A DNA stretch of 10,064 nucleotides from Betaproteobacteria bacterium. Its GTDB lineage: Bacteria > Pseudomonadota > Gammaproteobacteria > Burkholderiales > SG8-39. Location: positions 1 through 10,064 of the forward strand of contig JAFARH010000054.1 of NCBI GenBank assembly GCA_019245555.1, given 5' to 3'. Positions 5,841 to 9,728 of the stretch are shown in pieces. Under the pieces are notes generated by a model. That model was not told the origin of the DNA. It searched no databases and worked only from the letters and a program-made list of their open reading frames with translations. Numbering within the stretch: position 1 is the stretch's first letter; every line of letters begins with the position of its first letter. Made by a program: the position numbers and the translations under genes.

Positions 5841-9551
<3,711 letters not shown>

Positions 9552-9556
9552 GGACG

Positions 9557-9560
9557 CTCC
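9557..9560 (-). promoter_or_regulatory. Shine-Dalgarno site deciding the metH start
   Basis: GGAG on the minus strand lies five bases before GTG 9551-9549 and immediately after the terminator T-tract. No comparable site precedes the in-frame TTG at 9566, which sits in the terminator itself. This site is the main reason for calling the GTG start. Confidence 0.75.
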
Positions 9561-9598
9561 AAACAAAAAAGCCCGTTCAGCTTTCGGCAGAAACGGGC
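9561..9598 (-). terminator. Intrinsic terminator in the metH leader (attenuator)
   Basis: On the minus strand GCCCGTT (9598-9592) pairs perfectly with AACGGGC (9577-9571). An inner stem closes around a short CGAAA loop, and TTTTTTGTTT (9570-9561) follows. This is a strong rho-independent terminator by form. It lies between the SAM-II aptamer and the metH ribosome binding site, so it must be conditional if metH is expressed from the upstream promoter. It could not serve any minus-strand gene ending here, since none does. That makes attenuation of metH the natural reading. Confidence 0.85.
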
Positions 9599-9624
9599 CC
9601 GCTTTACTTCCTCGGAGCGATGCG

Positions 9625-9678
9625 TCTCTTTAGCCGGATTTATTACGCGCCCGCAAGCTGAACATCAAATCGGCGCGG
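9625..9678 (-). ncRNA. SAM-II (SAM-alpha) riboswitch aptamer upstream of metH
   Basis: The minus strand carries the H-type pseudoknot pattern of the SAM-II class. P1 is formed by CGCGCC (9677-9672) and GGCGCG (9651-9646), six perfect pairs. The loop begins GATTT, as in the class. The 3' strand reads TAATAAAT, two bases, then GGCTAAAGAG, close to the conserved TGATAAAT and GCTAAA segments of the known metX/metA leaders. The loop also has AGCT, able to pair with GGCT in the 3' strand for part of the pseudoknot. The class binds S-adenosylmethionine and shuts off methionine or SAM synthesis genes. Its place in front of metH fits that role exactly. The match was made by eye from remembered consensus; a covariance-model search with Rfam RF00521 would settle it. 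Confidence 0.86.
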
Positions 9679-9680
9679 AA

Positions 9681-9696
9681 GTGGGAGTCTGCCCAC
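9681..9696. repeat. Short inverted repeat over the metH promoter -10 region
   Basis: GTGGG and CCCAC form a perfect five-base inverted repeat with a six-base centre (AGTCTG) that is exactly the candidate minus-strand -10. It could be an operator half-site pair, or chance in GC-rich DNA. I do not recognise it as a known methionine regulator site. Confidence 0.3.
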
Positions 9697-9714
9697 ACCT
9701 CTGGAGAGTGTCAA
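9686..9714 (-). promoter_or_regulatory. metH: Candidate sigma70 promoter for the metH leader
   Basis: On the minus strand a perfect TTGACA (9714-9709) is followed after 17 bases by CAGACT (9691-9686), a weak -10 with three of six consensus bases. Transcription would begin near 9679, directly at the first stem of the SAM-II aptamer, and give a leader of about 128 bases. The fit of start site to aptamer supports the call more than the -10 sequence does. Confidence 0.5.
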
Positions 9715-9722
9715 TCGCTGCC

Positions 9723-9728
9723 TATAAT
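9723..9728 (+). promoter_or_regulatory. Candidate -10 box for the thioesterase gene
   Basis: A perfect TATAAT ends 11 bases before the ATG at 9740. Transcription would begin near 9735, leaving a leader of about five bases, too short for a normal Shine-Dalgarno site. No convincing -35 is seen (TCTGGA at 9700-9705 is weak). The box lies just beyond the minus-strand -35 of metH, so the two promoters would be back to back. Confidence 0.45.

Follow-up and report, generated by a model that had tools for sequence, protein, structure and literature searches.

A SAM-II leader upstream of metH in a betaproteobacterium and its probable use in transcription attenuation

The leader of the metH gene in the DNA analysed here (a 10,064-nucleotide stretch, hereafter the window, and an entire contig; the genome it comes from is fragmented, with 466 contigs totalling 2.44 Mb at 78% completeness) raises a simple question: how would a SAM-II aptamer that stands well upstream of the ribosome site, with a terminator in between, govern the gene below it? 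A first-pass annotation of this DNA had named transcription attenuation as the likeliest mode, and the analysis supports that reading: the leader likely turns metH off by SAM-dependent transcription attenuation. SAM binding and the direction of the response (OFF) are what we infer here.

The gene itself (5841-9551, minus strand, 1236 aa) was first read as metH, encoding B12-dependent methionine synthase, and the name holds. Its product contains the Pfam domains S-methyl_trans, Pterin_bind, B12-binding_2, B12-binding and Met_synt_B12 (searched on a longer frame from TTG 9566), and two NCBIfam models, PRK09490 (2093.6 bits) and TIGR02082 (1721.6 bits), each score above their cut-offs. The start chosen is GTG 9551, 5 nt past the Shine-Dalgarno GGAG (9557-9560, minus strand), which lies outside both the aptamer and the terminator hairpin; close relatives (L005, L011, L016) have GGAG-GTG or GGAG-ATG at this place. 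A search for other methionine synthases (MetE candidates) gave PF01717 matches of at most 121 bits in the genome.

Upstream of the gene, a covariance-model check bears out the earlier assignment to SAM-II: RF00521 (SAM_alpha) matches 9686-9609 on the minus strand, the strand of all leader features described below, at 38.1 bits against a gathering score of 36 (E 8e-6 over the window), and no other Rfam family reaches its gathering score in the window. The computed aptamer core occupies 9623-9677. In P1, the 5′ strand CGCGCC (9672-9677) pairs with the 3′ strand GGCGCG (9646-9651), 9677-9672 opposite 9651-9646; in the pseudoknot P2, the 5′ strand (9653-9661) forms seven pairs with the 3′ strand GCUAAAGAGA (9625-9634), whose end overlaps a strand of the proposed antiterminator (9629-9623). 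A covariance model built from relatives scores 79 bits at 9680-9620, the window itself being among that model's 75 sequences. The element thus resembles RF00521 in P1, in the pseudoknot, in the conserved core, in having a methionine gene downstream and in scoring over the cut-off, and differs in its target, metH.

Covariation, whose absence had been named beforehand as counting against the element, is present in both P1 and the pseudoknot over 75 aptamers (every second one of 187 distinct aptamers up to the 75th, with L184 left out). Taken together, P1 and P2 are 97.2% paired, with a computed covariation score of 0.137 against 0.047 in shuffles (0/500 as high); both sides are changed in 44 cells, where shuffles give 14.9. 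P1 alone has 96.9% of its cells paired, with two of six pairs changing on both sides and three invariant; for P2 the figures are 97.5%, one of seven and four. Seven of the 13 pairs are therefore invariant, hence uninformative, and the signal comes from two pairs of P1 and one of P2. The outer pair of P1, for example, is CG in 30 aptamers, AU in 19, UG in 11 and GU in one (unpaired in 14 of 75), and the P2 pair 9661:9625 is UA in 37, AU in 15, UG in nine, CG in five and GU in two (unpaired in seven of 75); the third pair of P1 is CG in 73 and UA in two. Unlike this column test, a duplex swap test on the two strands of the pseudoknot detected nothing. A chance aptamer is ruled out by the score, the covariation and the three matches before methionine genes in this genome (two of them over the cut-off). 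Judged from its sequence, the element very probably senses SAM.

Between the aptamer and metH, the first-pass annotation had placed a terminator, and a hairpin with a U-run is indeed found there (9599-9561). The hairpin, GGCCCGUUUCUGCCGAAAGCUGAACGGGCU (9570-9599), has a computed energy of -14.9 kcal/mol, with GGCCCGUUUC as its 5′ arm and GAACGGGCU as its 3′ arm, and leads into the U-rich tract UUUUUUGUUU (9561-9570). A simple consensus terminator scan found nothing in the metH leader stretch, probably because the loop is too long for that scan, which allows at most 8. By itself the hairpin is modest: when the downstream sequence is dinucleotide-shuffled, an equally good one appears within 160 nt in 48 of 500 cases. 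It is accepted as real because of recurrence across metH leaders, not hairpin stability alone. A terminator was found in 24 of 25 leaders of the first metH set (shuffled versions of the same leaders reach -8 kcal/mol in 89 of 500 cases) and in 67 of 68 SAM-II metH leaders of the enlarged set; L132 has SAM-II before metH without a terminator. As first estimated, 65 nt separate the 3′ edge of the aptamer (9625) from the Shine-Dalgarno GGAG (9560-9557), a distance that rules out direct masking of the ribosome site by the aptamer.

A probable promoter sits on the other side of the aptamer. TTGACA (9709-9714) is the probable -35 element, and 22 of 25 metH leaders have TTGAC ahead of the aptamer; 17 nt away, CAGACT (9686-9691) is a weak match to a -10 element that recurs in close relatives. 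Transcription from this pair would begin just ahead of P1, and Corbino 2005 (PMC1273637) notes that the likely start site usually falls a few nucleotides ahead of P1 in SAM-II leaders. A simple promoter scan found nothing in the metH leader stretch. On the plus strand, a divergent thioesterase-like gene (9740 onward) has TATAAT at 9723-9728, 8 bases from the metH -35 element, and several relatives have ATTATA at the matching place.

The earlier reading named no antiterminator; since an attenuation mechanism requires one, a candidate is proposed here. With SAM bound, the pseudoknot would hold GCUAAAGAGA (9634-9625) and the loop strand (9661-9653) within the aptamer, the terminator (9599-9570) would form, and RNA polymerase would halt ahead of the metH ribosome site. 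Without SAM, both pseudoknot strands would be free to pair elsewhere, in two helices that we infer from complementarity. In helix A, AGAGACG (9629-9623) would pair with CGUUUCU (9595-9589) in the 5′ arm of the terminator (7 bp, -8.2 kcal/mol). In helix B, GUUCAGCUU-GCGGGC (9663-9649) would pair with AAGCUGAAC (9583-9575), which lies in the terminator loop and 3′ arm, and with GCCCG (9598-9594); the two segments, GUUCAGCUU (9663-9655) opposite AAGCUGAAC (9 bp exact) and GCGGGC (9654-9649) opposite GCCCG, make one colinear helix. Once both helices had formed, the terminator would be blocked and metH transcribed. Four strands would therefore exchange partners: either strand 1 with 2 (the SAM-bound pseudoknot) and 3 with 4 (the terminator), or 2 with 3 and 1 with 4 (the antiterminator). 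This exact antiterminator is likely, and less certain than attenuation as such.

The pairing partners of the two helices were compared in swap tests on 67 metH leaders with a terminator, which reduce to 60 distinct ones, a set in which common descent is only partly removed by swapping. For helix A, the leaders' own pairing gave -9.63 against -7.94 for swapped partners (0/5000), and -9.20 against -8.26 when collapsed to 24 combinations (40/5000). Examples of own partners are AGAGACG/CGUUUCU, GCGAC/GUCGC, AAGCGC/GCGCUU and AAAGCG/CGCUUU. For helix B, own partners gave -14.60 against -13.57 (n=58, 0/5000); its GCGGGC:GCCCG part hardly varies and shows no covariation. The smaller first set was less clear: within the family, helix A for metH was not significant (327/3000), and helix B for metH was weak (236/3000 in the family, 93/3000 over all sets). 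Among leaders of other genes, helix A holds for the sulfhydrylase group (0/2000 and 0/3000) and is weak for metX over all sets (48/2000, 142/3000); for the remaining genes both helix A (1643/2000; 2942/3000) and helix B (1447/3000) fail. The register of the antiterminator pairs shifts from lineage to lineage.

Folding gives a mixed picture. From the aptamer to the end of the terminator, the ligand-free RNA folds into the helix B form, whose -36.4 lies 5.5 kcal/mol below the -30.9 obtained when the terminator is enforced; an intermediate that stops at 9583 forms P1 and helix A. A longer segment (9690-9545) folds with P1 and the terminator, at an energy no better than that of shuffles (z 0.36). 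Among the minimum folds of 24 metH leaders, the aptamer-terminator fold appears in 10 and the terminator in 15, one leader having both.

The strongest of the other explanations is that the aptamer is a true SAM-II element and the terminator constitutive, always lowering metH expression, with SAM acting on the promoter, on translation or on RNA stability, a reading already put forward for metA in Sinorhizobium meliloti. There the terminator after the SAM-II element is not predicted to respond to SAM (PMC9373788), and the terminator-containing minimum folds in 15 of the 24 metH leaders fit this explanation too. So do three relatives: L319 and L320 (from the window's own genus) and L349 have TTGAC and, by eye, a terminator-like hairpin with no SAM-II match, so the terminator need not depend on SAM in those leaders. 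They are probable natural losses of the aptamer, and offer natural controls. Against a constitutive terminator stand the complementarity between pseudoknot strands and terminator, which exceeds that of swapped partners, and the presence of a terminator in all but one of the 68 SAM-II metH leaders; on this evidence the explanation is unlikely. A separate leader, L367, holds an apparent decayed remnant of SAM-II.

Control mainly at translation is less probable still. Here the spacer CGCUCC would mask the Shine-Dalgarno GGAGCG in the full-length RNA, and the 146-nt fold of 9690-9545 does pair these two regions; the close relatives L005, L011 and L016 lack the CGCUCC spacer, however, and the 65 nt between aptamer and ribosome site also speak against it, so that we regard it as very unlikely. 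The most improbable suggestion of all is that the locus serves to make the short terminated RNA, which would act in trans as a small RNA, with metH control secondary: S. meliloti makes SAM-II terminated RNAs (RZ, RA1 and RA2) whose trans role their authors left open (PMC9373788), but the metH alignment, which covers the stretch from aptamer to terminator, contains no conserved region between the two.

Transcription attenuation, the preferred reading, has precedents within the SAM-II class. The first-pass annotation had taken the use of a terminator as a departure from the known SAM-II mode; the terminator itself stands, but the departure was overstated, as this mode has been in print since 2005-2007. 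In S. meliloti, the metZ leader has a SAM-II element and then an intrinsic terminator that is predicted or suggested to end transcription (Scheuer 2022, PMC9373788). In Gluconobacter oxydans, an O-succinylhomoserine sulfhydrylase gene has SAM-II and a terminator, with coverage of the leader 20-fold over that of the gene, and the same report cites predicted terminator and antiterminator conformations for SAM-II (PMC5756330). Such predictions thus exist for alphaproteobacterial genes (PMC5756330, PMC9373788). The window shares with these two leaders the order of SAM-II and then intrinsic terminator; they differ in belonging to alphaproteobacteria and to another gene, and their antiterminators are compared here by description rather than by base pairs. 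The logic is also that of the S-box (SAM-I) attenuators of Firmicutes, in which SAM binding blocks an antiterminator and the terminator forms (for OFF switches in general, see Barrick and Breaker 2007, PMC2258182), but S-box is a different aptamer class of which the window's element is not a member. The switch class and its use of a terminator are therefore known. No description of metH as a SAM-II target turned up in the literature searched, which took in a riboswitch review (PMC10907184), included few subscription papers and had the gene comparison in figure 2c of Corbino 2005 outside its scope. With this locus, B12-dependent methionine synthase joins the genes seen downstream of SAM-II; the locus also offers a base-level, testable model of how the pseudoknot may be coupled to a terminator.

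The metH leader has company in its own genome, where SAM-II matches lie before two further genes: metX (L002), at 36.5 bits and above the cut-off, and a metZ-type sulfhydrylase gene (L003), which at 33.2 bits falls below it. Across 98 genomes of the family, searched with stricter filters that lose weak matches, the Rfam model gave 106 matches in 62 genomes, and 40 genomes have one over the cut-off. The genes downstream of the 106 are metX (42), sulfhydrylase-family genes (37), metH (18) and others (nine). These names were given by similarity to references and checked with NCBIfam for L171 (MetX), L186, L003 and the window's MetH. L003 scores as O-succinylhomoserine sulfhydrylase and L186 as a cystathionine gamma-synthase family protein, so the sulfhydrylase group is a mixed family. 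The MetX of L171 scores as homoserine O-succinyltransferase (661.6 bits, cut-off 560), which fits L003 as an O-succinylhomoserine sulfhydrylase.

The Rfam model undercounts SAM-II at metH. There are 89 metH matches in 82 of the 98 genomes, of which 77 were examined; the 12 left comprise fragments at contig ends, a single distant paralogue and a number of complete genes. With a model tuned on relatives, SAM-II was found in 60 of these 77 leaders (28 of 30, a further 25 of 40 at a threshold of E 0.001 or better, and seven already known), and no match to it was found in the other 17; three leaders among the further 40 (L348, L351, L352) end at contig ends. The wider order, taken to be Burkholderiales, is represented by 399 genomes, of which 173 contain a match at E 0.001 and 67 one over the cut-off. 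Among the matches listed, 87 outside the family were examined; they lie before metX (36), the sulfhydrylase group (25), metH (seven) and other genes (19), and the seven before metH are spread over four other families. Among 80 named MetH loci, a significant SAM-II precedes metH in two, both metagenome-assembled genomes (Polynucleobacter and Herminiimonas), each with a terminator.

One probable reason for the undercount lies in an insert-type SAM-II, in which an extra hairpin stands between the 3′ strand of P1 and the AAAU strand. The insert was recognised by reading in about 41 of 60 SAM-II metH leaders of the family, and it also occurs in metX leaders of named Burkholderiales. The insert alignment (A3) holds 42 of 45 references (L323-L326, L328, L330, L334-L336, L340, L341, L343, L344, 23 of L345-L384, L041, L294, L296 and L298-L300), with L337, L295 and L044 left out. 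In a fold test on 34 inserts, 31 fold with at least 5 pairs, and the mean z is -2.56 against base shuffles. Searching 14 insert-type loci with Rfam 15 at E 0.05 gave no RF00521 call and no match to RF01726, the SAM-II long loops variant; RF01726 likewise has no match in the window at its gathering score. By name that variant is a SAM-II with enlarged loops, but it is listed for Bacteroidetes and marine sequences (Weinberg 2010, PMC2864571).

Two elements that carry other names may belong here. The first is RF02424 (Burkholderia sRNA Bp2_287), which matches the reverse strand of three of the 14 insert-type loci, the metH leaders L335, L346 and L347, at 27.2 to 35.3 bits, under its cut-off of 70. 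According to the family's source, it lies ahead of methionine genes and may act in cis (PMC3521395); RF02424 is probably SAM-II read on the opposite strand. The second is the metXZ element of betaproteobacteria (Leyn 2014, PMC4239095), which stands before metX and metZ, has conserved regions that resemble a pseudoknot and a terminator after them, and was presented there as a novel element. Compared by text and taxa rather than by consensus, it is probably insert-type SAM-II. Among 14 named genomes examined, nine have a SAM-II core before metX, including those of Paraburkholderia, Caballeronia, Trinickia and Cupriavidus. It is quite probable that methionine genes of Burkholderiales (metX, metZ-type genes and metH) are widely controlled by SAM-II attenuators, largely overlooked because most metH copies carry an extra hairpin that Rfam misses, that the metXZ RNA and, on the other strand, RF02424 are this same riboswitch, and that its antiterminator would draw on both pseudoknot strands, making the ligand pocket the switch element. 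Should the insert form be accepted, two Burkholderiales elements that now have names of their own would merge into one known riboswitch class.

The host was first taken for a betaproteobacterium, and the MetH gene tree (72 of the 80 named MetH loci) agrees, placing the window within an 18-row clade with SH-aLRT 96. The other members are labelled Nitrosomonas, Nitrosomonadales, Burkholderiaceae, Alcaligenaceae, Oxalobacteraceae and Methylophilaceae, apart from L033, labelled only Proteobacteria; two metagenome-assembled genomes labelled Betaproteobacteria (L065 and L072) fall outside the clade.

Some SAM-II copies met along the way look different. In the metX leaders of Alcaligenes, Eoetvoesiella and Advenella (L190, L191 and L187; Alcaligenaceae), the 3′ end of SAM-II runs into AGGTCC and ATG, and these are probably a translational form that masks the ribosome site. 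Tandem copies about 58-114 nt apart occur at L023, L030, L031, L121 and L179, before open reading frames that are not metX, metH or sulfhydrylase genes, and the contig of L031 and L179 has four copies; tandem SAM-II is already in print (PMC9481103). One of the reading frames, at L030, is weakly like phage exonuclease families, and three others have no PHROG match. A plasmid collection gave one short match (Paracoccus, 22% of the query), and viral contigs gave 0 exact matches to two SAM-II patterns. The window's genome also has one SAH riboswitch (L314, 3067-3137), on a contig other than those of the SAM-II matches.
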